From positions 1 through 34,460 of the forward strand of contig QKCC01000096.1 in assembly GCA_003245835.1 (NCBI GenBank): DNA of 34,460 bases, written 5' to 3'. This DNA is from Spirochaetales bacterium. Its GTDB lineage: Bacteria; Spirochaetota; Spirochaetia; UBA9216. Each line of letters begins with the position of its first letter. Within the stretch, counting starts at the first letter, position 1. Of the stretch, positions 9,047 to 26,946 are shown piece by piece. A program made the translations under genes and the position numbers. The notes below the pieces were generated by a model. That model was not told where the DNA came from, did not search any database, and saw nothing but the letters and a program-made list of their open reading frames with translations.

Positions 9047-10399
9047 GTGAAAATGCTGAAAAGATTTTTATTATTGAGTTCTCTTCTCTTTGCTGCAGTG
9101 AATGCAGCATTTTCCGACACTGAAGAAGTATTTATAGAAAAAATTGCTGTTGAACCGAACGGCCGTAATACGACTGAACCCGAAACATTAAAATCATACC
9201 TTCAGATTTACGAAGGGCAGATCTTTGATTCTGAAGCGGACCTGTCAAAGGCAGTTGAAATCGAGCTGCAGTCGTTAAAAAATACAAGATATTTCAGCTA
9301 TGTTGAAATCCGGATCTCCGGGTCAGCTGAAAACGAGAACGGATATATTCTGACTTTGGAATACGAAGATGACTGGACCTTTTTACCAATACCCTACCCT
9401 CTGCCGGAATCGGATATCGGAATAAACGGGTGGCGGTTCGGCCTTCAGATTAACTACGATAACTGCTTCGGAACAATGACCGACTTTTTAATAGACGGGG
9501 ACGCCGGGTTCGCATTCGGAGAAGCCGATAAACTGAAAAAATGGGAGATTGAATCCAGTATAAAAAACCTCAGATTAGGAAAACAGCGCTTCTCGGTGGA
9601 ATATAACCAGCTGTACAGCACCACTGAGGTGATCGATCCTAATGCTGCCGAGGGATATCAGCTGCTGCAGCATTATACAAATCACAGCAGTTCGTTAAAA
9701 TTGGCGACATCTTTTAAGATAGCGCCGTTACTGACCTATGCGGTTTACCCTGAAGCCGGCATGAAATACCTTTACGACTACCACTCATCCTTTGAAGGAG
9801 CATCTGTACAGAATAATTCGGACGTCATCGAAGACCGGCTGTCTTTGATATTCGGACAGGAAATCCGTTATTCGGATGTCGACTGGATAAACCGCGTCAG
9901 GGACGGTTTTGAAGTAAAACTGCTGAATAATCTGAGGCTTTTGAACTCGTATGATAACGGTACGACGGTGGAATCCATGCGTATAGCCTCGGATTTCAAT
10001 CTTACAGCAAATTACTATCTTAACCTGACAGACAGCATTTACTACTATACCGAAGCAGCTGCGATTGTTGTAATCAATGATTACGAAACAGGCCTCGGCG
10101 ATAAGCTGCGGGGAGTAAAGAACAGCTCAATGTACGGTGATTTGGGGTTTTTCTGGAAGAATACACTTGGAATTGAAGTTTTCGGATTCGATTCTTTATT
10201 TATTCAACTGCATCCCTACGTAGATGTGGGCGCCGCTTTTTATACGCCGGAGATGCAGTCTATAGGGAACGCTTTCAGGGTCGGGTTCGGCACTGACATT
10301 GTTATAATGTTCGGAAGTGTCGATCTAAGGGCGACAATAGGATACGATCCTGTATCAGGATATATCGACATAGGTTTCTCGAACGAGCTTGAGTACTGA
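9047..10399 (+). CDS. Small Omp85/BamA-TamA-like outer-membrane protein with one POTRA domain
   Basis: The 450-residue product starts with a signal peptide ending near NAAFS, then a single POTRA-like unit (about 25-110) with the tell-tale stretch from YEGQIFD to NTRYFSYVEIRI, then a beta-barrel rich in alternating aromatic strands. Within the barrel, GDKLRGVKNSSMYGD resembles the (V/I)RG(F/Y) lid motif of Omp85 proteins, and the chain ends in an aromatic residue, as barrels do. It is much shorter than BamA and has one POTRA instead of several, so it is not the main assembly factor. GTG 9047 directly abuts the acyl-CoA synthetase stop; ATG 9053 is an equally possible start. The gene pairing suggests a lipid- or envelope-related export role, which is inference. 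Confidence 0.75.
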   Translation: MKMLKRFLLLSSLLFAAVNAAFSDTEEVFIEKIAVEPNGRNTTEPETLKSYLQIYEGQIFDSEADLSKAVEIELQSLKNTRYFSYVEIRISGSAENENGYILTLEYEDDWTFLPIPYPLPESDIGINGWRFGLQINYDNCFGTMTDFLIDGDAGFAFGEADKLKKWEIESSIKNLRLGKQRFSVEYNQLYSTTEVIDPNAAEGYQLLQHYTNHSSSLKLATSFKIAPLLTYAVYPEAGMKYLYDYHSSFEGASVQNNSDVIEDRLSLIFGQEIRYSDVDWINRVRDGFEVKLLNNLRLLNSYDNGTTVESMRIASDFNLTANYYLNLTDSIYYYTEAAAIVVINDYETGLGDKLRGVKNSSMYGDLGFFWKNTLGIEVFGFDSLFIQLHPYVDVGAAFYTPEMQSIGNAFRVGFGTDIVIMFGSVDLRATIGYDPVSGYIDIGFSNELEY

Positions 10400-11711: not shown

Positions 11712-12386
11712 ATGACACCAGTATATGTTGATGAACAAATCATCGTAATTAATAAAACAGCGGGACAAGCCGTGCAGTCCGCCCGGCCGGGTGATGAAAC
11801 AGTTACCGCTATGCTTGAAAAGGAATACGGAAAAATCGGAATTGTGCACCGGCTCGATTCACCGGTGAGCGGGCTGATTGTTTTCGCGCGCACAAAAAAG
11901 GCTGCCGCCGGGCTCAGCAGACAGTTCAGTGAACATCTTGTCAGAAAACGTTATTTATGCGCGGTTGACTCCGCCCCGCCGTCCGAGGAAGGCGTATTGA
12001 AGAATTTCATGCGGATTCCCCCGGGGACCGGGGTCAACAAGGTTTATATAGCCGAAGAAGGCGGTAAGAACACCCGCGAGGCTGTACTCGAATACAAAAC
12101 GGTTTACCGCACTGAAAAGTATTACATTCTGATGATTGAACTTAAAACCGGAAGAAAGCACCAAATCAGGGCCCAGCTTGCTGCAGCCGGCTGTCACATC
12201 AAGGGTGATGTAAAGTACGGCGCGCGGCGGGGAAACCCCGGCGGGGGAATTCATCTTCATGCCTGGTCGCTCGAATTCGCCCATCCGGCAACCGGCAAAA
12301 AAATGTCTTTTACCGCGCCGCTGCCCGATGACCCGATATGGAACGCCGCAGCTGCCGGCGGAGCTTTATCCGCCGATACGGATTAG
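11712..12386 (+). CDS. RluA-family RNA pseudouridine synthase, short form without S4 domain
   Basis: The enzyme isomerises uridine to pseudouridine in rRNA or tRNA. It has 224 residues and begins directly with the catalytic domain: VDEQIIVINKTAGQAVQ is the usual first strand pair, HRLDSPVSGL (near residues 46-55) contains the catalytic Asp, and LKTGRKHQIRAQLAAAGC is the conserved C-terminal core. The N-terminal S4 RNA-binding domain of RluC/RluD is missing, as in RluA and many short family members, so the target cannot be told. The last 21 bp overlap the convergent zinc-ribbon gene. The start has no ribosome binding site but sits 7 nt after a -10-like element. Confidence 0.9.
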   Translation: MTPVYVDEQIIVINKTAGQAVQSARPGDETVTAMLEKEYGKIGIVHRLDSPVSGLIVFARTKKAAAGLSRQFSEHLVRKRYLCAVDSAPPSEEGVLKNFMRIPPGTGVNKVYIAEEGGKNTREAVLEYKTVYRTEKYYILMIELKTGRKHQIRAQLAAAGCHIKGDVKYGARRGNPGGGIHLHAWSLEFAHPATGKKMSFTAPLPDDPIWNAAAAGGALSADTD

Positions 12387-12713
12387 CAGCACCAGAAGGA
12401 TTATGATTACCGCGACAAGAACCGGTATGGCCCGGCTGTAGAAAAGGTCCGAAAACCGTTTTGCTTTTTTACCTGCAAGGCGGCCGGACCGGCTGCCGTC
12501 ATTTGTACTGCCGAAATCATAAAAATCCTGGTTTTCATAGAGTCTTTCCTCTGCGTAACCGCAGGACGGGCAGCCGTTAACAAACATATCGGGACTTCCC
12601 GATGTTCCGCATTTCGGGCATTTAACGGACCTGAAATAGCGACCGCATTTAGGGCACCTTGTTTCGTTCTTGTCGACCTGTGTTCCGCAGTTGTCGCAAA
12701 AGAATTTCTGCAT
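12366..12713 (-). CDS. Small double zinc-ribbon protein with C-terminal membrane anchor
   Basis: The 115-residue product has two cysteine clusters in its first half, with CxxC pairs CDNC and CPKC, then CPKC and CPSC, giving two likely zinc ribbons. A charged linker (about 60-90) follows, and then one hydrophobic segment, ending LVAVIIILLVLLIRIGG, so it is probably tail-anchored in the inner membrane with the ribbons in the cytoplasm. Its ATG overlaps the stop of the SpoIIE phosphatase gene as TAATG, so translation is coupled. The 3' end overlaps the convergent pseudouridine synthase gene by 21 bp. A role as partner or adaptor of the phosphatase follows from position only. Confidence 0.75.
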   Translation of the reverse strand: MQKFFCDNCGTQVDKNETRCPKCGRYFRSVKCPKCGTSGSPDMFVNGCPSCGYAEERLYENQDFYDFGSTNDGSRSGRLAGKKAKRFSDLFYSRAIPVLVAVIIILLVLLIRIGG

Positions 12714-15700
12714 TATTTTTTATTGATCCCGAGAATTGTCAGGTCGTCAAACTGAATATCTTCCTTCAGATGTGTAAAAGTCAGGTACTGATCCTCTTCG
12801 GCAGCCGGCAGCGGATGAGCAAAATAATCCTTCCAGCCTTCAAAATGCTCCTGCAGAAATGCTGCGATTGCCTTATCTATAATTATTCTGTCATCGGATC
12901 CGGTATCAGGAGTGCGGTACATTCTGAAGATTCGTTCAACAGAAATACAGGCTAAAACAATCTCTTCGATCGAACCTGTACAGCCGGTAAAATTGAAGTA
13001 CAGTTTTTCATCCGCAATCGGGTTTTTGTATTTTTCAAGATTGTATTTTCCGCCTTCTTTCAGCGCGTTTATCATTTCCTGCATCCGCTTAAGGCTGAAT
13101 TCTTCAAACCCGTCCGTTGCCGAAACATTGTCAGGAATATTCTTCGCTTCATCTTCGGAAGGCTGCCACTTCAGCACATTGTAGGAAGAATCCCTAAGCA
13201 GCCGCTGGGCCTCTTCCAGACCGTCAGTGAACATCATCAGGTCATCGCCCGGGTTGAGTTTGTCCTTAATCTGGACAAATCCTGAACCCATTCTAACCAT
13301 ATCCGAATCAAAAACACCGGCTGCAGGCGCTTCCGGCAGTGTTTTTTTAATCATTTTCCGCTGTGCGCTGTCGTACATATGGACCAGGTTATCACCCGCA
13401 TGACAGAATAAGGTGTCACCTGTATCTTCGTTCACAATCACTATTGTCAGCGCCGCGAAACGTCCTTTAAAACCCACCTGCTCTACGAGGTCGTTAATGC
13501 TGTAGGTCAGTTCCGAGATATTCGGCGGCAGCGATTTTCCAGATTTGCTTTTCGGGGCCTTCCAGTTTCTGAAATAACTCAGAAAGATAGTGGCTACCTC
13601 TACCATGATCAGCGAGGCTGGAACACCCTTGCCTGCAACGTCGCATTTTATGACCGCCCAGTGCACATCGTCAATCTTTCTGAAATCAAAATAGTCCCCG
13701 GAAACTCCCCTTGCACCTTCGTAGTAGCCGAAAAAGGCGATTTTATCATTCTCGGCACTTCCTATCGAAAGTTTTTTCCCGGTAAAATCGGAGTTCAGCG
13801 GAATAAAGTTTTTCTGAACAGCCTTACCACCCATCAGCATTTCATTTGCCTCGGCGGCTTCAACAAGCCCTTCGGTCATCTGGTTTACGGTATCGGCAAG
13901 CAGTGCCAGCTCATCGCGGGTTTTTATGTTGATCTCATGGCCCTTAAGATCCGCTTTGTCTTCGGTATCACGGATTAATTCAACACCCTTTACCAGCTTG
14001 TTTATCGGGCTGATCATCATCGCGGCCAGAATGAGTGCGCCGACAATTCCTAAGACAACTGCCGCGAGGGCGATAGCCGAGATGAGCTTTATCAGCTGGC
14101 GGGTCGACTCTGCTATGCTCGCAAGAATTCCATCCGTAGAAACACCGAGGCGGACGATTCCGCGGAAGTATACATCATCGTTCTGGCTTCTGAAAACGAT
14201 CGGTTTATAAAAAATATAATTCGTATTGTCCGCGGTCAGCTGTTCGGAGTTGTATTCCGGAAAGCTCGCGACCTGGTTTCCGATTTCATACAGCCGCGTA
14301 TTGAGTTCAGTATCGAGAGACCGGAGTTCATCCTGGATCTGGTTGATCGCATCTTCCGTTTCCTTGTTGCCTGTTCTGATGAACTGTTCTACAAGCGGAT
14401 TTACCTGGTTGTTCAGGCGCTGGATTTCTTCAACAATTCCGCCTACCCTGGCAGCAGCCTGCTCGTTTATACGCTGCGCAAGGCTGTCAGTAACTGTCGA
14501 GACATCATCGGTCATCAGGTAGGTGCCGGCGGTTCCGAAATCCGCCCTGATATTGCTGTCGTTGGTGGCCCACACGTAGTCATATTTGGCAGGATCATAG
14601 TTTTCCGTCCCCTGCACCCCTGAACCGGTTATTGTAACAAACACGGCATCTTCCTTCAGGGCCGACATCTGCGACGGAAGAGTGCTGAGCTCGATTATAT
14701 TTTTGGCGGGAAGGAAGGTCCGGGCCCCCGAGGTAAGACTTTCAAGCAGAACTCCGGCCCGCTCTTCAAGCCCCGAGGCCATAATAACCCTCTGGTTGTC
14801 CGTCGTGATGAATGCAATCGGTATCGCGATCATTGCAACAATCAGCATAACAAGAATTGTTATCAGCAATGCGAATTTAACCCTGAGTCCCATACGTATC
14901 TTTGCCATTTGAGCTATCCTCTTTCGTTTTTCTTCAGCATCGAATGCAGTCCCCGGTACAGGCCCGCCTTCTATCAGTGCGACAGCCTGCCTATGCAGAA
15001 TTCTTGCCTCCGAAACAAGCACTGTTGTTCTTCTGAGTGTAAACACAAACAGAAAAACAAGAAGTACCATAATAAGGCCGAGCAGAATGTATCTGAACGG
15101 AACGGTAAATCTCCGTTCCGGAACAATTTTCATTACAGGAACCGGAATTGAAGAAAAGTCTCCAAGCTTCACAGTTCCGGATGATTCTATGCCGATTGCA
15201 GACCGCGTAAAATATAATCCACGCGCCGGGTGGACCAGACCAATCCGGTAATTCCCGGCATCGATATTTTCGATCACCGGTCCGGTAATATAGCGGTCGT
15301 TTACGACAGAATACAGTCCGTCTTCAAGCCTGTAGGTATAGTCGTAAGGCGCCTCACCGTCACGGTCGAGTATCACTTCCTGTACAAGGCCGCCTACGGA
15401 AAAACCGCGGCCAGTCAGCTCCAGCGTAACCGCACCGAGCGAGTCGGTTTCACTGTCTATTACGGTAATATAGGTGACCGGAATATATTTGTTCAGCCTG
15501 AAAAAGATCACCTCGGGTTCACCGGTATTGCCTACATAATCAACAGCACGAACGCTCAGAGCCCATAGACCGTTGTCGATATTTCTGAAGCCGTATGAAG
15601 TCTGTTCCGTCATCAATTTTGCAGCGGGAATTTTTACAGTCTGAGGCCCCGGGAGATCCCTGTTCCACAGACCAATAAACTGCAGGACGTATGAATACCC

Positions 15701-17350
15701 TGCAACGTCTGTATCGGATTCCGAGGGATTCCACCCGATTGAAGCAGTATTCGAGAGCATAGTCCCGTTATCATCAAATGCGGGTTCAATAAAAACAACT
15801 TTACCGGGAGGAGTGGTATCGCGTACTATCCGGATAACAGCCGGATCGGACCAGTTGCCTGCGTAGTCCTGCGCAATAACCTGAAAATACCATTCACCGT
15901 CTTCCGGAATATCAATTGTAATGCTCCGGTTTCGGTCGAGCATCATCAAATCGTGTTCTGGAGCAGCCTCTGGGTCACCGCCCCAGCTGTATGAATAACC
16001 CGCAATTCCGGAAGAATCTTCCGGCGAATTCCACCGTATAGTGTAGCTGTCCTGCGAAGAAGCCCTTCCTGCAACAAAATCAGCGGCGCGAAGAACAGGC
16101 TTCACGATAGTTTTATCGGGGGCAAGCATCATCAGTCTGTTGCGGCTGCCGAGTTCGTTCTCCCAAAGCACGAACATATCTTCGCCGCTGACGAGAAGGC
16201 TTCCGAAAACAGATACCCCGTCTGTCAGGTAATTCAGATCCTTATCGCTCCAGTACAGGCCGTCGCGGCTTGCAAGAATGTTGTGATAATCTCCGACCCG
16301 GTTGTCAAACCAGATTATGTAGTCATTGCCCCGGTAATTGGTAAGTCTCGGTGAGCGGCATTCAGCATCACCGCGACTGACCTGCTCAGGGGGCTGAGTC
16401 ATTTTTCCGTCAAATCCGAGGCGGCTGTAGTATACCTGCGGGTTATTTCCCGCGTAGCTGCGCTCCCATACCAGGCTGATTCCGTCGTCTGTAGCAAGAA
16501 TGAAAGGCCGCTGGTTGTCGAAAAAGCTCGGGTCGCCCGACCAGAAGGCATTCTCGGTGTCATCAAAGCCTGAGAGGTACTGAGGTGCGGACCAGCTGAG
16601 TCCCCCGTCGGTGCTGTATTTCAGGTACAGCTGAAAGGTCGACGCGGCTCCGACATTGAAAGCCTGAAATGCTACATACTCGCGGCCCCGGTACGAGGTA
16701 TGGGAAGGAAGAAAATTGCCGTTAAGCGAAGGTTCCGGCGCAAGCGCTTTGTACTCGGTCCAGTTCGTTCCATTATCGGAGACAGAATAATAGATTCCAA
16801 GCGAACCGAACTCCGTTCTTGCTGATTCCTGCGTTACGAAAAGGATTAATCCGCCGTCTTCACGCTGGGAAAGCCTCGGGCTTGTCCTAAGCAGAAAAGC
16901 CGGGGAACGGTATATCTCTTTAAAATCTGTCCCTGCATTTTCAGATTTCATTATGCTTACCGAATTATCATTATTGGATACGGCAAGCGTGATCACCCCG
17001 TTCTCGTCGACCACAAAGGAAAAAAAGTAGCTTTCTTTGCCTGAATATTTATATGGACCCGAAAAACGCCTGAGGGTATTCCAGGCAGTACCATTTTGTG
17101 AGGTAACAGCCGACAGGTAGAATTCACCGCCGTCTTCGGTTGTGGTAACAGATTCCTGCCAGATTGAGGCAATCAAACCTCCGCCGGCTGCTTTTCTTGA
17201 AAAATCCGCGCCGTTTGAAACAAGAACCTGCTCGGCTTCCCAGTAAAAATCCTGGGCCGAGAGCATTGCTCCTGTGAAAAAAATGAACATTGTCATTAAA
17301 AGTGAGAATATTACAGCTCTGACCCTTTTTCGGCGCTGAATCCTTATCAT
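12713..17350 (-). CDS. Giant transmembrane SpoIIE/PP2C-family phosphatase with exported beta-propeller and FN3-like domains and HAMP
   Basis: This is a 1545-residue signalling protein. Order: signal peptide or anchor (about 1-31); a propeller-like region (about 35-415) with Asp-box-like turns, the clearest being STDGGLSW; two FN3-like modules (about 420-640), each with an AxDYxGN phrase; a further exported domain; TM1 (about 753-773); a cytoplasmic helical linker; TM2 (about 825-850); an exported sensor segment with a long helix; TM3 (about 1085-1110) running into HAMP; and a C-terminal SpoIIE/PP2C phosphatase from about 1200. The phosphatase metal-site motifs are intact: SGDYFDF, CDVAGKGVPA, HAGDN and TDGLEEA. 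It should dephosphorylate a cytoplasmic Ser/Thr-phosphoprotein, classically an anti-sigma antagonist, in response to an envelope signal. Its ATG overlaps the TPR gene's stop (ATGA) and its stop overlaps the zinc-ribbon start. Substrate and ligand are unknown. Confidence 0.88.
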   Translation of the reverse strand: MIRIQRRKRVRAVIFSLLMTMFIFFTGAMLSAQDFYWEAEQVLVSNGADFSRKAAGGGLIASIWQESVTTTEDGGEFYLSAVTSQNGTAWNTLRRFSGPYKYSGKESYFFSFVVDENGVITLAVSNNDNSVSIMKSENAGTDFKEIYRSPAFLLRTSPRLSQREDGGLILFVTQESARTEFGSLGIYYSVSDNGTNWTEYKALAPEPSLNGNFLPSHTSYRGREYVAFQAFNVGAASTFQLYLKYSTDGGLSWSAPQYLSGFDDTENAFWSGDPSFFDNQRPFILATDDGISLVWERSYAGNNPQVYYSRLGFDGKMTQPPEQVSRGDAECRSPRLTNYRGNDYIIWFDNRVGDYHNILASRDGLYWSDKDLNYLTDGVSVFGSLLVSGEDMFVLWENELGSRNRLMMLAPDKTIVKPVLRAADFVAGRASSQDSYTIRWNSPEDSSGIAGYSYSWGGDPEAAPEHDLMMLDRNRSITIDIPEDGEWYFQVIAQDYAGNWSDPAVIRIVRDTTPPGKVVFIEPAFDDNGTMLSNTASIGWNPSESDTDVAGYSYVLQFIGLWNRDLPGPQTVKIPAAKLMTEQTSYGFRNIDNGLWALSVRAVDYVGNTGEPEVIFFRLNKYIPVTYITVIDSETDSLGAVTLELTGRGFSVGGLVQEVILDRDGEAPYDYTYRLEDGLYSVVNDRYITGPVIENIDAGNYRIGLVHPARGLYFTRSAIGIESSGTVKLGDFSSIPVPVMKIVPERRFTVPFRYILLGLIMVLLVFLFVFTLRRTTVLVSEARILHRQAVALIEGGPVPGTAFDAEEKRKRIAQMAKIRMGLRVKFALLITILVMLIVAMIAIPIAFITTDNQRVIMASGLEERAGVLLESLTSGARTFLPAKNIIELSTLPSQMSALKEDAVFVTITGSGVQGTENYDPAKYDYVWATNDSNIRADFGTAGTYLMTDDVSTVTDSLAQRINEQAAARVGGIVEEIQRLNNQVNPLVEQFIRTGNKETEDAINQIQDELRSLDTELNTRLYEIGNQVASFPEYNSEQLTADNTNYIFYKPIVFRSQNDDVYFRGIVRLGVSTDGILASIAESTRQLIKLISAIALAAVVLGIVGALILAAMMISPINKLVKGVELIRDTEDKADLKGHEINIKTRDELALLADTVNQMTEGLVEAAEANEMLMGGKAVQKNFIPLNSDFTGKKLSIGSAENDKIAFFGYYEGARGVSGDYFDFRKIDDVHWAVIKCDVAGKGVPASLIMVEVATIFLSYFRNWKAPKSKSGKSLPPNISELTYSINDLVEQVGFKGRFAALTIVIVNEDTGDTLFCHAGDNLVHMYDSAQRKMIKKTLPEAPAAGVFDSDMVRMGSGFVQIKDKLNPGDDLMMFTDGLEEAQRLLRDSSYNVLKWQPSEDEAKNIPDNVSATDGFEEFSLKRMQEMINALKEGGKYNLEKYKNPIADEKLYFNFTGCTGSIEEIVLACISVERIFRMYRTPDTGSDDRIIIDKAIAAFLQEHFEGWKDYFAHPLPAAEEDQYLTFTHLKEDIQFDDLTILGINKK

Positions 17351-20300
17351 CTTGTTCGCTCAATCCTTTCCTTCAGGTCAATAAGTTTGGGATTACGTTG
17401 ATTGTCGGGATTTTTGAGCAGATTTTCCACTATAATAAGTGCTTTCAGGTAATTTCCGGCGGTAAATTCACTTACAGCCTCGTTGTAAAGCTGCTGATCG
17501 GCACTCGACATAACAGCGGATGCAGTTCCGCCGACATCGGTAGAGATCCTGTCCTTCAATCTTATCGCGTCATTATTGTTCGGGTTCAGGCTGATTGCCT
17601 CATCGAGGTAGCTCAGTGCAACATTAAACTCTGATCGGACATTCCTGCTTACAATATCATACGCAAGTTTATAGAGTTCGGTGCTGCGTGCGAGTTTCTG
17701 CGGATCCGGCGGTCTAACCTTGATTCCGGCGGCATACTCGGCTTCGGTAATGGCTGCCTTCAGACCCGGGTAATTCGGGTAAATTGCTGCAAGGTCCCTG
17801 AGATCGATATATGCCTTCTGCGGGTTCGAAGAAATCAGGCTGCGTGCAGTTCTGAAATCATTTCCGAAAACCTCTTCAAACTGCTTGGGATCCCTGTACT
17901 GGTTGATCTTCAGGTTAAGAACCCTTGCATCCTCATTGAACGGGAAGAACTGCTGAACATACAGAAGGCTCTGCTCGGCACCGGCAAAGTAGGTATCGGC
18001 ATCGGAAGTCCGGCCGCTGTCGTACGCGGCTTTTGCTTTCTGGAAATCATCCCTGGCCTGATTCAGATACTGGTTCATTTCAACATACAGCGGGTCCGTG
18101 GACGCTATAACACGGCCGGATGTAACCGACAATGCAGTCTGGGTCAGGGTCAGCCAGTATTCGACCTCGGGGTTGGTTTCAACGTTGGTGTCCGCCCACC
18201 GGCTCTGTGCCTTGATGAGAATCGACTGGGCTACCGGGAAAGCTCCCTGGGAATAGCTCGATTTGGCCTGTGTCAGATATTCACGGACCTGCTTAACAAC
18301 AAGGTTATTTTCGGCAACTTGTATTTCGCTGTACAGCCGCGGAATTTCAACGTCCCGGTAGTTCCGGAGGACTGGATTTTCAAGGTACGATAGTGAATCG
18401 TCGAATTTTGCGGCAGCCTGTTCGAGACGTTCCTTAGCCGCGGCAAACTGGGCACGCTGCGTAAGGGTCCTGGAATCTTCAAGTCGCCGTTCTCCTTCCT
18501 GCCTGAGTTTTTCGGCTGTAAAGATCTGCTCGCGCGCCTTCGTAATCAGGCTGTCGCTCCGGGCAAGCAGGGCGCTGCTTCTGCTTTTAAGATCATCCGA
18601 ATGGTCCGATGCGGCTGCTACTTCGCTGCTGTTCCGTATTTCTGCGCGCTCCGCGATAATTGCGGTATCTACTCCTGAAATATCCGTAAGCAGCCGGTTG
18701 ACAGTATTTTTCACTTTCTGCAGCTGTTCAAGAGCCTTGTCCGGATATCGATAGAGTGCCTGAAAATCCACGGTATTTTCGGCGTCCCCGTTCGCGGCAG
18801 CTGAAGCCTGGGCGTCATCTGCCGGAACTCCTGAAATAAGGTCGGAACTTTCAGTCACCAATGTTTCCGCCGCAAGATAGGCTTTTTCATAACCTGCCAG
18901 CCTTAGTTCGGCCACTTCCGATACGAGGAAAATTTCGGTATCCAGCAGACTGCCGGCCATCGAACTGAATTCTCTAACCGGAAGATTGACTGCCGCGACA
19001 GTTTTATTTTTTATCGTTTCGTCGCCAGCCGTATTCTGCACCTCGCCAAGCCTGTTTGACCACAGCTCTGCCAATCCCGAAATTTCGGAATTCTCGGTAG
19101 AGATTCTGTCTTTGAGGAACTTCTGCACTGTATAGTAATCAGATTCAGCAGGATCGAGCGCATCTATCTGTGCCGAAAGCGATGCTATGACCTGCCGCTT
19201 TTCGATAATTGTTTTGAATACTTCAGCCACAGTACTGCACTGCTCAAGATAATACAGATTCGATTCAAGCTTCTGCTTATCGGAAAGGTACAGCCCGTCT
19301 CTTTGAAACTGTGAATCGGATTCTAAATATTCCGTACCGAAACGCAGCGCATTTATCCCGCTCCGGGCTGCGATCGTGAATGCAGCAAACGCGCTTTCCG
19401 CACCGCTGTAGTTCCCGTCTTCGTAAAGCCCGGCAGCCTTGTTGAACAGTTCTTCCGCAAACTGAACTGAACTATCGGCAATGCCGTTGTATATTCCGTT
19501 CCAGAATAATTCAACAGCACCTGAAATCCCCTCGGGCTCATCAACCGTGGTACGCCCGTTGATCAATCTGTCCATGTAAATAAGGTAGTGAATCTGTTTA
19601 TCTTCACCGCTTGCGGTCCTGATTAAATTCTCCTGGACGATGAAATAATCGGCAATATCTTTCAGAAGCTCTCTAATCTCGGCCGCACGCTGCAAATCAG
19701 GCATAATAGCTGCGGTATTTGAGATGTAGTCCTCAAGTTTTCGGCCTGTAAAGCTGGCGGAAACTGCAGAAGACTCTTCAGACAGCTTGGGAAAAAGACT
19801 GATGAATTCTTCGGACAGACTGCTCATCTCGTCGGCACGGCTGAAGACATCATTGACGACAATGTTTCCGTAACCGCCGTCATTGAAAATATCGCGGCTC
19901 AGATCGAACCCGGTCTCATAGGTCTGAACTGCAGCCGCATATTCTCCGCCCGCAATCTGACCTGAGGCAGTTTCCATGATTCCCACCCATCGCTTGTTGT
20001 TGAATACGAATCCGGCGGTTTCACGGGCAAGCACCAGCGATATTCTTGTCGCTTCGTTGGGGTTGGGATCGAGGTCTTCGAGTTCCTTTATGATCGGATA
20101 GGCAGCTTCAACTTCATCACCGCCGTAAACATTGAGAAGTTCTTCGTATTTGTCATTATAATACTCTTTATCTTTCCGAATCTCTGTCAGCAGGATCTGA
20201 ACATCATCCATCCGCTCAGGGTGCTTCTTCAGGACTTCAATAAGGATCAAAAGAGCTTCATTATATTCTTTCGATTCAATAAGAGTCCGGGCTGCAGTCA

Positions 20301-20400
20301 GACTGTCCTCCTGCGAACCTCCTGCCCAGACCGCCCCCCCTGCTGAGAATGAAAAAATGAGTAGTATAACAACAAATAACCCTAATCCGGTTTTATACAA
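17347..20400 (-). CDS. Large exported TPR/coiled-coil protein
   Basis: The product has 1017 residues with a signal peptide cleaved near AVWA-GG and no lipobox Cys, so it is periplasmic. The N-terminal 40 residues after the signal are a TPR (ARTLIESKEYNEALLILIEVLKKHP). The middle (about 580-680) is a charged, Ala/Glu-rich coiled coil. Further TPR-like pairs occur through the second half, such as SYSQGAFPVAQSILIKAQ, YDSGRTSDADTYFAGAEQ, EFNVALSYLDEAISLNPNN and FTAGNYLKALIIVENLL near the C-terminus. The TTG at 20400 is chosen because AGAGG lies 9 nt upstream and an in-frame stop lies just before it. It overlaps the SpoIIE phosphatase gene by ATGA, so it is a strong candidate periplasmic partner or ligand-sensing arm of that protein. 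No enzymatic motif is visible. Confidence 0.82.
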   Translation of the reverse strand: MYKTGLGLFVVILLIFSFSAGGAVWAGGSQEDSLTAARTLIESKEYNEALLILIEVLKKHPERMDDVQILLTEIRKDKEYYNDKYEELLNVYGGDEVEAAYPIIKELEDLDPNPNEATRISLVLARETAGFVFNNKRWVGIMETASGQIAGGEYAAAVQTYETGFDLSRDIFNDGGYGNIVVNDVFSRADEMSSLSEEFISLFPKLSEESSAVSASFTGRKLEDYISNTAAIMPDLQRAAEIRELLKDIADYFIVQENLIRTASGEDKQIHYLIYMDRLINGRTTVDEPEGISGAVELFWNGIYNGIADSSVQFAEELFNKAAGLYEDGNYSGAESAFAAFTIAARSGINALRFGTEYLESDSQFQRDGLYLSDKQKLESNLYYLEQCSTVAEVFKTIIEKRQVIASLSAQIDALDPAESDYYTVQKFLKDRISTENSEISGLAELWSNRLGEVQNTAGDETIKNKTVAAVNLPVREFSSMAGSLLDTEIFLVSEVAELRLAGYEKAYLAAETLVTESSDLISGVPADDAQASAAANGDAENTVDFQALYRYPDKALEQLQKVKNTVNRLLTDISGVDTAIIAERAEIRNSSEVAAASDHSDDLKSRSSALLARSDSLITKAREQIFTAEKLRQEGERRLEDSRTLTQRAQFAAAKERLEQAAAKFDDSLSYLENPVLRNYRDVEIPRLYSEIQVAENNLVVKQVREYLTQAKSSYSQGAFPVAQSILIKAQSRWADTNVETNPEVEYWLTLTQTALSVTSGRVIASTDPLYVEMNQYLNQARDDFQKAKAAYDSGRTSDADTYFAGAEQSLLYVQQFFPFNEDARVLNLKINQYRDPKQFEEVFGNDFRTARSLISSNPQKAYIDLRDLAAIYPNYPGLKAAITEAEYAAGIKVRPPDPQKLARSTELYKLAYDIVSRNVRSEFNVALSYLDEAISLNPNNNDAIRLKDRISTDVGGTASAVMSSADQQLYNEAVSEFTAGNYLKALIIVENLLKNPDNQRNPKLIDLKERIERTR

Positions 20401-20636
20401 TCAATCAGCCTCTAAACTTTTACAATAAAAGCAATTCCCATAATTCGCATCTGCGCCTGGGCAGAATATACCTGTTCCTATTGTCGGCAAAAAACGAAAC
20501 CCAAATGAGCTGTCATTACAGGCAATTCAACTTAAATGTAACACATAAAAAGAATATTTTCGTCGTGTCAAGCCGCTTCCCTGCCGTTAATAAAACTGAA
20601 TAGAAACGTGTGGATTTTTGTAGTATATTTAACATG
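20401..20636. promoter_or_regulatory. Divergent intergenic region between TPR/SpoIIE operon and PorV-like gene
   Basis: On the plus side TATATT (20624-20629) lies 7 nt before the ATG at 20637, with no clear -35 and no ribosome binding site. On the minus side a TATATT (20470-20465) could start a leader of about 60 nt, but its best -35 (TTGCCG, 20490-20485) is only 14 bp away. I see no RNA gene or strong hairpin in the rest. Confidence 0.35.
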
Positions 20637-21860
20637 ATGAGGCGTATTTTTTTCGCTATACTGCTTTTTCTTCTCTCTACTTATACCTGGGCAACGGCTC
20701 TTGAGGATTACTACAACCTTATGATGTCGGTAGACTTTCTTACCGGAGATCCGAACACGGGAACAACTGTTTTCCCGCTGCTGCGTATACCGGCAGGCGG
20801 AAAGGCTGAAGGAATGGGTACTGCGCAGACCGCGGTTGCCTCCGATTCTTCATCGGTTATTTACAATCCGGCGCTGTCATCCGTTCTTGACCTGACCGAG
20901 CTCACATTCCTGCACAACAACTGGATCGCCGATTCCAGCATCGAAAGTGTAAATTTCACTGCCCGCTTCGAGGACCTCGGTATAGCCGCAGGGATGAAAA
21001 TGCTTTACCTGCCCTTTACCGAATACGACAGCTGGGGTGATGAAAAAAACAGGGGATTGCCTATCGAGACGATTCTGATGCTGAATACATCATACAATTT
21101 TTTCAGAAACTACTATTTCAGCGGGGTCTCCGCCGGTGCCTCGCTCAAGGCAGGGTACCGTCATGTACCGGCTGTATTCGCTGAAAACCAGTCTTCATTT
21201 GCGATAATGGCTGATGTAGGGCTGTACAGCAGCTTCGATTTTCTGAAATTTTATGATTCAAGAGACGACAACCTTTCAATCGGCGTTGTTTTCAGGAATG
21301 CCGGGGTCGAGACGCTCGGAGAGGCACTTCCGACAGAGTTTTCAGCCGGTTTCGCCTATTCCCCGGTCAGACCTTTCAAACTTGCATTTGATTTCAACCT
21401 GCCTGTGAATCTTCTGGGTGAAGATGCGGAAAAATGGTATCTGGCCGGAGGCTTCGATGCGGTACTGACCGATTTCTTCTCTTTTCAGGGGGGATTCAAC
21501 TACCGGGGAGCAAACCCGCGGCTGTCTCTTGGAAGTACAATCAACCTTGCCGAGGTCGCGTTCAACCTGAATTATACCCTGGATCTGACTACCGGATCGG
21601 AAATAGCAAACCGGCTCAGTCTTGAAGCCAAGGTTAAGCTCGGGGATGAAGGACGGTATGCAAGGGGACAGCGCGTGGACGAACTTTACATTGCAGGCCT
21701 TGAAGCGTACGCTGCCGGTGATCTTGAAAAAGCGATCTCGTACTGGCAGGCAGCACTCGATATGGACAGCAGTTTCACCCCGGCTGAGGAATTCATCGCA
21801 AGCGCATCGAGATCAACCGAACTGCTGAGCAGAATGGAAGAACTTAATAAGGTTGAATAA
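20637..21860 (+). CDS. UPF0164/PorV-FadL-like outer-membrane barrel with C-terminal TPR
   Basis: This protein of about 407 residues has a signal peptide (ending TWATA) and the family opening YYNLMMSVDFLTGDPNTGTT, followed by RIPAGGKAEGMGTAQTAVASD and IYNPALSS, which is the PorV/UPF0164 signature of spirochaetes and Bacteroidetes. The barrel runs to about residue 340. The C-terminal 60 residues contain a clear TPR (AGLEAYAAGDLEKAISYWQA). Family members are outer-membrane proteins related to FadL; roles in lipid uptake or, in Bacteroidetes, type IX secretion are known for relatives, and neither can be claimed here. Two adjacent ATGs exist; 20637 is preferred over 20634 because it lies 7 nt after a TATATT. 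It is divergent from the TPR/SpoIIE operon, which encodes another TPR protein. Confidence 0.82.
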   Translation: MRRIFFAILLFLLSTYTWATALEDYYNLMMSVDFLTGDPNTGTTVFPLLRIPAGGKAEGMGTAQTAVASDSSSVIYNPALSSVLDLTELTFLHNNWIADSSIESVNFTARFEDLGIAAGMKMLYLPFTEYDSWGDEKNRGLPIETILMLNTSYNFFRNYYFSGVSAGASLKAGYRHVPAVFAENQSSFAIMADVGLYSSFDFLKFYDSRDDNLSIGVVFRNAGVETLGEALPTEFSAGFAYSPVRPFKLAFDFNLPVNLLGEDAEKWYLAGGFDAVLTDFFSFQGGFNYRGANPRLSLGSTINLAEVAFNLNYTLDLTTGSEIANRLSLEAKVKLGDEGRYARGQRVDELYIAGLEAYAAGDLEKAISYWQAALDMDSSFTPAEEFIASASRSTELLSRMEELNKVE

Positions 21861-21865
21861 AACCG

Positions 21866-22639
21866 TTACTCGTGACGGGACATTTTTGCGTATACGGCAA
21901 ACAGAAACGGATCGACCTTCCGGCTTGACATCCACCTGAGCATTCTTGATCTTCCCGATTCGGACCCTTCAGCCTCTGAAAGCCTGATCAGAAGTTTTTC
22001 ATGCTTTTTGAAATCACCCTCGTCAAAAAGAAGCCTTATGCTCTGAATCAGTTCGTAAACCTTTTCTTTATCAGTGTAGTCGAACATGCTCCCGTTATCG
22101 TCTTTCGTCATATTAAGCAGCAGCTGCTCCATATCGGTGCTTGTTTCACATAACTGAAGGTACTGCTCTACATCCTTCGTAAACTGATCTTCATTGAAAA
22201 CAATCCCGTCAACCTTGGTTCTGAGCTTCACCTTCAATTCAGTTGCCGCTTTTGAATCGGAATCGCGTTTGGAAAGAAACAGGTATAACAAAACCGACCC
22301 GACTGTACTGATGACTATTTCATCGACCATCGGTAGAGGATCCCGGATTACAACAGATGTAAAAAAATAAAGGACCAGAAAGCAAAGCGTTGAAATCAGA
22401 AACCTCGGAATAAACTTCTTCTCGGCGGACCAGTCTTTTACAGCCTGTTCGATCAGCCGGTACAATTCATTTCGAAGCAGCGTTAGAGATTCCACCCTCG
22501 GCTCCCGTCCGTAAAAACCGGCAATGTCATTTTTATCAAGAATGTTTATAAGGTTCTGCTTTTTATTGAAAGGATACAGAAATATCGAAGTACCGTTTTT
22601 TCTGTAGATATGAAATATTGTTATCCTGTTTCCGTCCAT
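21866..22639 (-). CDS. Unrecognised membrane protein with two TM helices
   Basis: I do not recognise this family. The 257 residues divide into a soluble N-terminal part (about 1-78), a hairpin of two membrane helices (about 79-101 and 106-126), and a charged, mostly helical C-terminal cytoplasmic part ending at AVYAKMSRHE. The N-terminal region has the phrase YRKNGTSIFLYPFNKKQNLINIL. No catalytic motif is evident. It follows the ankyrin gene by 54 bp and has its own candidate promoter, TTGACG (22677-22672), 18 bp, TATTTT (22653-22648), ending 8 nt before the ATG, and no ribosome binding site. It converges on the PorV-like gene with a 5-bp gap. A functional link to the ankyrin protein is possible. 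Confidence 0.7.
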   Translation of the reverse strand: MDGNRITIFHIYRKNGTSIFLYPFNKKQNLINILDKNDIAGFYGREPRVESLTLLRNELYRLIEQAVKDWSAEKKFIPRFLISTLCFLVLYFFTSVVIRDPLPMVDEIVISTVGSVLLYLFLSKRDSDSKAATELKVKLRTKVDGIVFNEDQFTKDVEQYLQLCETSTDMEQLLLNMTKDDNGSMFDYTDKEKVYELIQSIRLLFDEGDFKKHEKLLIRLSEAEGSESGRSRMLRWMSSRKVDPFLFAVYAKMSRHE

Positions 22640-23753: not shown

Positions 23754-26700
23754 TCAGACCGCGCTTCTAACCCTGTTCAGGCATAAGAGTCCGCTTACAT
23801 TTATATATTCTGCCCCCAGCTCTTCTTCGACCCTTCCGCGGATTAGAAAAGCAAAGCCGGAAGCCAGAACAGGTTCAAATTCATTCCATGAATGAGGAAA
23901 AAAGATCGTTTCGAAGATGGACCAGCAGTCTTCAAAACTTACAAAACTCATTGGTTTTCGCGAGGAGGTCAAAACCTCCTTCTCAGCTGCAAGGGTGCCG
24001 ACAATAGTAATGCTTCGGCCCATGTGTTCACGAAGATTTCTGGAATCGATTATTTCCGGGGCACGCGCGTGCGCCCTGCCGATAAAAAAATCTACAGGGT
24101 GTTTCGAAAAGAATAAATCAAGCGTATCGATTTCATCAATCAGGCATCTGGACGAACTGTAACCCTTAAGCTGGGGAACGGGCAGCCTGTCGAAATCGCC
24201 TCCAAGCCCCGGGTTCCTGGAAACTCCGCCCCGCCCTGCATGATAATACAGCCAGAACATCTGGGGCCTGTTGCAGGAACCTGAAATACTGTCCAGGCAG
24301 CCGCTTTTTATCATCATCCGGATATACCGGTATGAAATATTCACCCGGCTTAACAGATCGATAAAACCGGTATAATCTCCGGCGCTTTTACGTTCTTCGA
24401 TAATCGTTTCGATAAGCTCCGCCGGAACATCCCTTATCTGCTGAAGTCCCGCACGCAGACATTTGATTCCGCCCTCCGCTTCGATCAGATACTGTCTGCC
24501 GCTTTTATTGATATCGGGCTTAAGTACGGGGAACCCCATCCTGCGGACAATATTGAGATATACCTGCCGTGCATAAAACCCGCCGCCGTTATTAATTACC
24601 GACACCATAAATTCAAGCGGGTACCGCAGCTTCAGCCAGGCAAGGCGGTATGAAACAAGGGCATACGAAGCGCTGTGCGATTTGCAGAATGAGTACCCGT
24701 CAAACGAAAGAATCCCCTGCCAGAGTGTTTCGGCATCCGCACATGAAGTCCCGAAGGCTTCGGCCCCCTGCATGAAGCGTTCACGCCATTTGACAAGTTT
24801 TTCGGCCCGGTTCTTTTTTGACAGGGTCTTGCGCAGCTGGTCGGCCTCGCCGGGATTGAACCCTGCCGCCGCAATAGCGACCCGGGCGACATCCTCCTGG
24901 TAGACCATTATACCGAAAGTCTCGTCGAGCACCCCCTCAAGGCGGGGACTGAGCGGGCTGTAACTGCCCCCTTTCAGCCGGCGGACGTATTCGTTGATCC
25001 ATTTATTTGCCGCCGGCCGAATTATTGAACTGGCCGAAACAACATGCTCAAAATCAGCACAGCCCATTTTTTTAAGCAGCTGCCTTGTGGCCGGTGATTC
25101 GATGTAGAAGATCCCTGTGGTGTCGCCCGACTCGATGAACCTTCTTGTCCGGACATCCGAGTACGGCTGAAAGCTTTCCCATTCGATCCTGTTCTCGCGT
25201 TCGCTGTTGACCAGACTGATTGTATCGCGCAGGACAGCAAGCGAGCGGTTGCCGAGCAGGTCGATCTTCACAAGCCCGCAGGCCTCGGCGCCGTCCTTTT
25301 CCCAGGCGATTACCGGCACTCCCGAAGCGGAGGTCTGTACGTGAGTATATGAAGTAATAGGCCCGGGGGTAATTATGACCCCGCCCGGGTGCGTTCCGAT
25401 AAAACGCGGGCGGCCGTAAAGCAGGGCCGCCGCCGAGGCAATTTCACGAGGGAGTTCTTCTCCGCGGCCGCCGCGCCACTTTTTCATCAACTCATTCGCC
25501 TGCATATCGGTCATACCGAGGGCCTTTGCGGCTTCACGGGCGGCCCCGCGCCTTTTAAAGCAGACATGATCGGCAACCATCGCGGCCTGCCCGGGATAGG
25601 TCTCAAAAACGTAGTTCAGTGCGGTTTCACGCTCGTCCCAGGGGAAGTCGACATCAATATCGGGAGGATCGGCCCGATACATATTCAGAAAGCGTTCAAA
25701 GAAGAGGTTGTAGGCCAGCGGATCGACATGGGTTATTCCCAGAAGATAGGACACGATGCTTGACGCGGCGCTGCCCCTGCCGCAGGTCCGCGGGGCCCTG
25801 ATGACTATGTCGCGGACGACCAGAAAATAGGCGGCGAACCCCTTGCGGCAGATGATGTTCATTTCATAAGCCAGTCTTTTTTCCACGGCAGCGCTTTTTT
25901 CCGCGCCGGGTTCCGTTCCGTACCGTCTGCGGATCCCTTCCCGGCACAGCCTGTAAAGTTCCCGGCCTGCCTCATCATCCGGCATATTCCTGTACCGGGG
26001 AAAAACCCAGCCCGGGGGCAGCAGGCTGTGCAGATCGGCCGCGGCCTCAGCTATCTCGATATTGCCCTGGAGGGCCTCGGGTACGGCGGAGAAATAATCT
26101 TCAAGGCGGACGTCCTCCGCCGTGCCGGAAAACCCTGTACATGCAGGCCCTGCCCCTTCCGGTACCGCTGCGGCGGCCCCTGATGCCGGAAAGGCCGGAA
26201 AATCCAGCCTCGCGGCCGGAATGCCCGTGTCCACGGAACGCAGCAGCCTGAGCGTTTCAAAATCTCCGGGGGCCGAGGCAATTGCCTCTTTGACCGCTGC
26301 GGTTTTTATGCCGAGGCAGCGGGCCGTCCGTTTGAGCCCGGCAAAAGGAACACCCTGAAAAAGCGCCGCGTAAAGCCCGCTGCCGCCGCCTTCCCTGAGC
26401 CGCCCAAGAACATCCGGCCTGCTGCTGAGGATCAGAAGTCCGTTCCGGCCGTTTTCAAGCAGGTCATGAACGGGATCATAGCTGTAATCGGTACCTCTGT
26501 AAGGGGAAAAATCATGCTGCAGTCTGGTAATTATCGTATTAAGCCGCCCGAAACCGGTTTTATCAAGGCAGTAAGCGGTAAAAAGATATTTTCGGTTTTC
26601 CGACGGGGCCGAATCTGTTATAACGGCGGCGGCGATCGCCTTCAGCCCGTATTTGTCGGCAGCATCACGGAAGGCCGGCAGCCCGTACAGATTATTGACG

Positions 26701-26834
26701 TCCGTCACAGCCGCGGCGGGGACACCTTCTGCGGAGGCCGTCCGGCATATATCTTCAGCGGAACGTACCCCCTGAAGAAGGCTGTATTCGGAGCGGCAAT
26801 GTATATGATGATTTACCCTGATATGCTTTTTCAT
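23754..26834 (-). CDS. DnaE-type DNA polymerase, resembling error-prone DnaE2/ImuC
   Basis: A C-family DNA polymerase of 1026 residues. Polymerase carboxylates are present: PDIDVDF at 391-397 (Asp394 and Asp396) and Asp525 in KIDLLG. An OB fold follows near the C-terminus (SITIVGTLAAEKEV to RGRVEEELG). The chain ends just after it, without the tau-binding tail of replicative DnaE1 (about 1160 residues). Length, PDIDVDF followed by ERETALNYVF, and the GGGFYARQVYLNIVRRMGFPV stretch point to the DnaE2/ImuC branch. The PHP domain keeps HIH at 10-12, but the usual TDH is TDV, so its metal site looks degenerate. ATG 26834 is chosen because the polymerase-like N-terminus begins there; an upstream in-frame start at 26870 adds only a hydrophobic tail. 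No ribosome binding site and no imuA or imuB is nearby. The middle of the gene is visibly richer in G+C than its neighbours. Confidence 0.85.
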   Translation of the reverse strand: MKKHIRVNHHIHCRSEYSLLQGVRSAEDICRTASAEGVPAAAVTDVNNLYGLPAFRDAADKYGLKAIAAAVITDSAPSENRKYLFTAYCLDKTGFGRLNTIITRLQHDFSPYRGTDYSYDPVHDLLENGRNGLLILSSRPDVLGRLREGGGSGLYAALFQGVPFAGLKRTARCLGIKTAAVKEAIASAPGDFETLRLLRSVDTGIPAARLDFPAFPASGAAAAVPEGAGPACTGFSGTAEDVRLEDYFSAVPEALQGNIEIAEAAADLHSLLPPGWVFPRYRNMPDDEAGRELYRLCREGIRRRYGTEPGAEKSAAVEKRLAYEMNIICRKGFAAYFLVVRDIVIRAPRTCGRGSAASSIVSYLLGITHVDPLAYNLFFERFLNMYRADPPDIDVDFPWDERETALNYVFETYPGQAAMVADHVCFKRRGAAREAAKALGMTDMQANELMKKWRGGRGEELPREIASAAALLYGRPRFIGTHPGGVIITPGPITSYTHVQTSASGVPVIAWEKDGAEACGLVKIDLLGNRSLAVLRDTISLVNSERENRIEWESFQPYSDVRTRRFIESGDTTGIFYIESPATRQLLKKMGCADFEHVVSASSIIRPAANKWINEYVRRLKGGSYSPLSPRLEGVLDETFGIMVYQEDVARVAIAAAGFNPGEADQLRKTLSKKNRAEKLVKWRERFMQGAEAFGTSCADAETLWQGILSFDGYSFCKSHSASYALVSYRLAWLKLRYPLEFMVSVINNGGGFYARQVYLNIVRRMGFPVLKPDINKSGRQYLIEAEGGIKCLRAGLQQIRDVPAELIETIIEERKSAGDYTGFIDLLSRVNISYRYIRMMIKSGCLDSISGSCNRPQMFWLYYHAGRGGVSRNPGLGGDFDRLPVPQLKGYSSSRCLIDEIDTLDLFFSKHPVDFFIGRAHARAPEIIDSRNLREHMGRSITIVGTLAAEKEVLTSSRKPMSFVSFEDCWSIFETIFFPHSWNEFEPVLASGFAFLIRGRVEEELGAEYINVSGLLCLNRVRSAV

Positions 26835-26946
26835 AATACCAAACAAAACTACTATACATATGTTTAGCATTAATAATATCAGTGTTCAAGCTTTAAATCA
26901 GCAATATGAGTTACAGCCGCTTCTTAATTAATTGCATTTGCGGTCA

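Follow-up and report, generated by a model that had tools for sequence, protein, structure and literature searches.

The window analysed here, the whole stretch of 34,460 nucleotides, comes from a genome (G000) of class Spirochaetia that is 96.7% complete in 318 contigs. The ORF list of the window places four ORFs at the positions that an earlier note on this DNA had assigned to an envelope-sensing unit, and these flank one divergent intergenic region:

12366..12713, minus strand: zinc ribbon gene, 115 aa, double zinc ribbon plus C-terminal TM helix (Pfam DZR 4e-7); accessory
12713..17350, minus strand: phosphatase (PP) gene, 1545 aa, exported-sensor SpoIIE phosphatase; apparent TP0854 counterpart
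17347..20400, minus strand: TPR-type protein gene, 1017 aa, exported; apparent TP0855 counterpart
20401..20633, no strand: divergent intergenic region between the TPR gene and the UPF0164 gene
20634..21860, plus strand: UPF0164 barrel gene, PorV/FadL-like outer-membrane barrel with C-terminal TPR; listed ORF from GTG 20610

The three minus-strand genes overlap in the way previously described, the TPR and phosphatase genes by 4 bp (ATGA) and the phosphatase and zinc ribbon genes by 1 bp (TAATG). Homologue N-termini together with the sequence suggest that the UPF0164 gene probably starts at ATG 20634 or 20637 rather than at GTG 20610. The divergent TPR and UPF0164 genes are separated by a median of ~120 bp in relatives, and a promoter scan of the region in the window (20401..20633) gave scores no better than shuffles. 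At window 12366-12386 the zinc-ribbon gene runs 21 bp into a convergent gene for a pseudouridine synthase (11712-12386), and window 9047-10399 encodes a possible ShlB-like protein (19.7 bits vs a Pfam cut-off of 22.7 bits). A DnaE-type DNA polymerase III alpha subunit gene (window 23754-26870) is often found near the barrel/TPR/phosphatase unit, in company with genes for an ankyrin protein and a small membrane protein (window 21866-22639).

Pfam searches confirmed the earlier reading that HAMP and SpoIIE domains lie on the same polypeptide, and also gave a BNR_2 match (1e-4). From N- to C-terminus, PP is laid out as follows:

17255..17323, minus strand: signal peptide, residues 10-32 (hydropathy)
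16085..17230, minus strand: single beta-propeller, residues ~41-422, ~seven blade-like strand groups (AlphaFold2 secondary structure, Foldseek)
15116..16075, minus strand: FN3/Ig-like domains and last beta domain, residues ~426-745 (profile matches, AlphaFold2)
15011..15112, minus strand: TM1, residues 747-780 (hydropathy)
14795..14899, minus strand: TM2, residues 818-852 (hydropathy)
14105..14794, minus strand: second exported alpha/beta domain with inserted helices, residues 853-1082 (hydropathy, AlphaFold2 secondary structure)
13991..14104, minus strand: TM3, residues 1083-1120 (hydropathy)
13862..14029, minus strand: HAMP domain, residues 1108-1163 (Pfam HAMP 3e-5)
12716..13768, minus strand: SpoIIE/PPM phosphatase domain, residues 1195-1545 (Pfam SpoIIE 3e-17; metal aspartates intact)
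12764..13204, minus strand: class-specific insert of ~145 aa, TDG-to-DDLT, residues 1383-1529, kept in class Spirochaetia

Residues 28-800 were modelled by AlphaFold2 at a mean pLDDT of 89 as propeller-type and then beta-sandwich-type strands followed by TM1, the blade count being taken from strand order rather than coordinates, and Foldseek returned sialidases and propeller lectins among the best PDB matches of the exported part. The earlier note had described this half as Asp-box propeller and FN3-like modules. The propeller, which is seen when the exported part is predicted alone, and the FN3 modules are borne out by AlphaFold2, Foldseek and profile matches, but only two Asp-boxes fit the scanned pattern. 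Because three TM segments follow the signal peptide, a second exported domain (~853-1082) lies between TM2 and HAMP; it had no Pfam match, and none of the PDB matches listed was specific to it. The part spanning this domain, HAMP and PPM was modelled at a mean pLDDT of 83.5, with Foldseek matches of the SpoIIE/PPM domain to RssB, SpoIIE, RsbX and SiaA. The catalytic motifs, previously read as intact, are indeed so: across 41 sequences, D1219, D1237, D1376 and D1535/D1536 show conservation of 95% or more, and the metal-binding aspartates sit in GDYFD, DVAGKG, TDG and DDLT motifs. Profile matches outside class Spirochaetia end near position 1355, before the insert. The second exported domain and the class-specific catalytic insert are additions to the layout known from the earlier note.

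The TPR-type protein has a signal peptide and no further TM segment, and its gene lies directly 5' of PP in nearly all loci, in agreement with its proposed role as a periplasmic partner. Pfam recognises the TPRs of the window protein only weakly, but those of shorter relatives strongly (TPR_2 1e-28). The barrel protein matches Pfam UPF0164 at 1e-42 and 146 bits vs a curated cut-off of 21.4, and it ends in a TPR as had been noted (C-terminal TPR_2 match 0.0018). Its earlier label of "PorV-like" is apt at a distant family level, but the NCBIfam PorV_fam profile scores 74 bits, below its cut-off of 90, and the T9SS PorV profile 17.8 vs 250 bits.

Full-length PP relatives occur across class Spirochaetia. 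When 248 Spirochaetia genomes were surveyed, counting only strong PP matches, PP, TPR and UPF0164 were all present in 143 and all missing from 93, leaving 12 mixed genomes; profile relatives of the TPR protein occurred in 151/248. Weak phosphatase matches (e.g. G011, G056, G161; up to ~1e-11 to 1e-16) were taken as other proteins. Eight of the 12 mixed genomes are PP-positive MAGs, 73-90% complete, without a TPR or UPF0164 match, one (G030) has a weak UPF0164 match only, one (G096) has TPR and UPF0164 but only a short PP match, and two (G238 and G246) are near-complete with a truncated phosphatase. Since co-occurrence follows lineage, Fisher p-values overstate independence and are descriptive of this table only.

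Gene order was compared in two sets of loci, 40 chosen to span many families and 80 from a named collection, the latter counted only where the contig was long enough; the sets share genomes, so their figures are kept apart and not summed. The TPR gene was directly 5' of PP in 40/40 and 68/69 loci, UPF0164 was divergent in 37/39 and 50/54, and the exact 4-bp TPR/PP overlap occurred in 18 and 53. Conserved order among spirochaetes had been chosen beforehand as the test on which the proposed unit would stand or fall, and TPR-PP-UPF0164 came through it. The zinc ribbon, proposed as a core component, did not: it is absent or non-adjacent in most lineages, lying directly after PP in 12/40 and 18/65 loci, and has no match in most Treponema loci. 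The UPF0164 barrel, the TPR protein and the phosphatase are one old unit, and the zinc ribbon is accessory.

The two truncated phosphatases come from different families, one genome (G246) being 100% complete on one contig and the other (G238) 99% complete. Profile searches found no TPR and no UPF0164 matches in either. The proteins, 873 and 813 aa long, lack the propeller and FN3 domains, with PP matches beginning about TM1, and keep an N-terminal hydrophobic signal-peptide-like stretch, TM1, the second exported domain, HAMP and PPM. Thus, the exported half of PP is gone where its presumed TPR and barrel partners are gone, and the catalytic half is kept. This joint loss is telling but not numerous, as it is seen in two genomes only. 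Across 38 loci, TPR distances tracked those of the PP exported half given HAMP-PPM (partial r 0.73) and were uncorrelated with HAMP-PPM given the exported half (partial r -0.02). For neighbour genes taken as controls, partial r was 0.28-0.52 against the exported half and 0.15-0.34 against TPR; because these controls also correlate, part of the TPR/exported-half signal is general, and we count it as supporting only.

A STAS search of 19 genomes found an ORF of ~185-199 aa in 11/11 PP-positive ones, consisting of a STAS domain (2e-24) with an SSTGIG serine motif plus a zinc ribbon. Ten other genomes carry copies 63-79% identical to that of the window genome. Within class Spirochaetia the gene is unlinked to PP, as in these two copies:

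L191:5081-5635 (G000:C168): STAS-zinc-ribbon gene, unlinked to phosphatase
L192:4866-5411 (G077): STAS-zinc-ribbon gene, unlinked to phosphatase

The protein is encoded in 139/155 class genomes with any core gene and in 8/93 without, and both genomes with truncated phosphatases retain it. Three near-complete Treponema-like genomes (G119, G173 and G179; L205, L206 and L207) lack the unit, yet each encodes a STAS-zinc-ribbon protein, which the tree places on a long branch. We considered whether these copies are the paralogue of G209/G227, and the tree does not show it.

Outside the class, seven loci (L242-L248) carry a fused PP followed by a STAS protein and then a kinase-like gene of ~141 aa, which matches Pfam HATPase_c_2 in L243 (1.8e-16) and has profile matches in the others. 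A TPR-type gene precedes PP in L243-L248, and the STAS protein lacks the zinc ribbon in L247 and L248. The order TPR then PP recurs in L250-L253. Eight further loci (L254-L261) distribute propeller, TPR and SpoIIE over three neighbouring genes, towards which a STAS gene (107-108 aa) is convergent. UPF0164 in genomes outside the class lies on contigs other than that of the phosphatase. The same parts are therefore found fused (L242-L248) or separate (L254-L261), keeping company across the phylum. In L254, the cluster is followed by genes for a CoxE-like VWA protein and an AAA ATPase. To judge from gene content, the set of TPR, phosphatase, STAS-zinc-ribbon protein and RsbW-like kinase outside the class represents a putative full partner-switching module. 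The L242-L248 clusters would be good models for biochemistry.

Because it adjoins the phosphatase in clusters outside the class, the STAS-zinc-ribbon protein is the likely substrate of PP in class Spirochaetia. The path to a cytoplasmic phosphoprotein that the earlier note had envisaged now has a concrete STAS candidate from these gene clusters. The genome search for STAS and anti-sigma partners that it had recommended was productive on the STAS side, but the window genome yielded no orthologous kinase. A profile built from the cognate kinases had no match in G000 or G077 and none in 227/248 class genomes, with only weak matches (best 1.8e-16) in the other 21. Two candidates for a kinase were rejected: profile-profile comparison with cognate kinases gave no match for the C-terminal PP insert as a degenerate RsbW, and the sole HATPase_c_2 match in G077 overlaps what reads as a histidine-kinase-like ORF beside a response-regulator-like ORF. 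No relatives were found in viral contigs.

G077, which we take to be T. pallidum (Nichols) and on which the TP gene numbers used here depend, has the unit in the same order. Three tandem UPF0164 genes lie beside it, the third keeping the TPR tail and the first two without, and there are five UPF0164 genes in all, equal to the number of published FadL-like proteins. The T. pallidum counterparts appear to be TP0854 (PP), TP0855 (TPR) and FadL-like TP0856/0858/0859 (barrels). TP0854 is a SpoIIE family phosphatase that was listed with sialidases by structure modelling (PMC10600179), and proteomics places TP0855 among the high-abundance hypothetical proteins, with a listing as putatively located in the outer membrane (PMC11668736). 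The available portion of PMC8407342 presents the T. pallidum UPF0164 proteins as FadL-like, proposed transporters and vaccine targets, reports a C-terminal TPR tail for TP0548, TP0859 and TP0865, and suggests a TRAP transporter as partner of that tail; the same portion neither mentions the SpoIIE/TPR locus nor ties the barrels to a phosphatase. In a literature search with subscription journals mostly outside its scope, a proteome list was the only item joining Treponema, FadL and SpoIIE.

We consider it likely that the propeller-FN3 phosphatase, the TPR protein and UPF0164 form one envelope-to-cytoplasm signalling unit that would act on STAS switching. Support comes from the conserved linkage, the co-occurrence, the joint loss in two genomes and the fusion and separation of parts across the phylum. 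Weighing against it are the failure to find a cognate kinase in G000, G077 and most class genomes, the long-branch STAS-zinc-ribbon copies in G119, G173 and G179, and UPF0164 genes that outside the class do not share a contig with the phosphatase. TM1 would hold the propeller-FN3 half of PP outside the cytoplasmic membrane, where this half, the periplasmic TPR protein and TPR-tailed UPF0164 may report on the state of the periplasm or the outer membrane. If PP behaves like other HAMP-linked PPM phosphatases, the signal would run from TM1 by way of the cytoplasmic loop and the second exported domain to HAMP, and from there to SpoIIE/PPM. The gene clusters suggest that the SpoIIE/PPM domain would dephosphorylate a STAS protein, in class Spirochaetia most likely the conserved, unlinked STAS-zinc-ribbon protein. 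Both linker control of PPM phosphatases, HAMP included, and STAS substrates have been described (PMC12143880, PMC11418112). A more specific model, which we offer tentatively, places the FadL-like barrels in a trans-envelope receptor (barrel tail - TPR - propeller) that would control the serine phosphatase and the STAS-zinc-ribbon regulator, the dedicated kinase having been lost. The earlier interpretation is partly supported: its direction was largely right, but the zinc ribbon loses its core role, a second exported domain joins the layout and a substrate is now proposed.

The same envelope unit might act in the class on a target other than the STAS-zinc-ribbon protein, either another STAS protein or a different phosphoprotein after kinase loss, with the insert marking the changed substrate. 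Such a target would fit the failure to find an orthologous kinase in most of the class, the unlinked STAS gene, the class-specific insert and the further SpoIIE and STAS genes in the same genomes. However, the STAS-zinc-ribbon family adjoins the phosphatase in L242-L246, and the protein co-occurs with the unit, is the only STAS match in near-complete G071 and is kept alongside both truncated phosphatases, so we regard a different target as unlikely. The earlier version of the output, in which the tail-anchored double zinc ribbon beside the phosphatase is the cytoplasmic element, is very improbable given that direct adjacency is confined to the minority of loci counted above and most Treponema loci have no match, even though its gene and that of the phosphatase do overlap in the window, as they do in several relatives.

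A different view of the exported half makes it a sialidase-like enzyme or lectin acting on host or environmental glycans, with the barrel linkage reflecting nutrient uptake rather than envelope sensing. The profile and Foldseek matches to sialidases, the structure-based listing of TP0854 with sialidases (PMC10600179) and the transporter role proposed for the FadL-like proteins (PMC8407342) are in its favour, but the exported half goes with a cytoplasmic phosphatase in all lineages observed, occurs in sediment and gut MAGs alike and has few fitting Asp-boxes (two by the scanned pattern); we judge it improbable. That adjacency reflects common expression or an old chromosomal location, with no joint function, is the least credible reading: unrelated genes (DnaE-type polymerase, ankyrin gene) are partly conserved around the locus too, but TPR and UPF0164 persist where those neighbours have disappeared; outside the class the parts turn up again, either fused or side by side as individual genes; and the exported half, TPR and barrel are lost together.

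Taken as a signalling unit with a STAS target, the locus provides a common working hypothesis for three largely uncharacterised, widely conserved spirochaete proteins, covering TP0854, abundant TP0855 and the FadL-like vaccine candidates in T. pallidum. It also offers a possible partner for the TPR tail, so far unexplained, of the FadL-like proteins, and the STAS-zinc-ribbon protein becomes a named substrate candidate that is testable with purified proteins. A clear puzzle is posed by a STAS protein that is very conserved, and by its likely phosphatase, when no orthologous kinase turns up in most class genomes searched.

Several known systems share parts of this design. As in RsbU/RsbV/RsbW and SpoIIE/SpoIIAA/SpoIIAB, there is a SpoIIE-type PPM phosphatase and a STAS protein with a conserved serine motif, joined, in loci outside the class, by a HATPase_c_2 kinase encoded alongside; PMC12143880 discusses HAMP-linked control of PPM phosphatases. 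Unlike those switches, the unit here has an exported propeller-FN3 half, a periplasmic TPR protein and an outer-membrane barrel as presumed partners, and a STAS protein that carries a zinc ribbon, and the search of class genomes turned up no orthologous kinase in most of them. An exported propeller before a membrane signalling protein recalls the Bacteroides hybrid two-component sensors BT3049 and BT4663 (PDB 3v9f, 4a2m), which were low-scoring Foldseek matches, but their output is a histidine kinase whereas ours is a phosphatase; the Pfam search of PP gave no Reg_prop or Y_Y_Y match. The barrel belongs to a family related to PorV/PorQ of the type IX secretion system (PorV_fam 74 bits), but it differs in scoring below that family's cut-off of 90 in a comparison made by family profile. 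It shares the UPF0164 family with T. pallidum FadL-like TP0548/0856/0858/0859/0865, and whereas the published view is of transporters and vaccine targets with a TRAP partner, we propose here that these barrels belong to a signalling unit.
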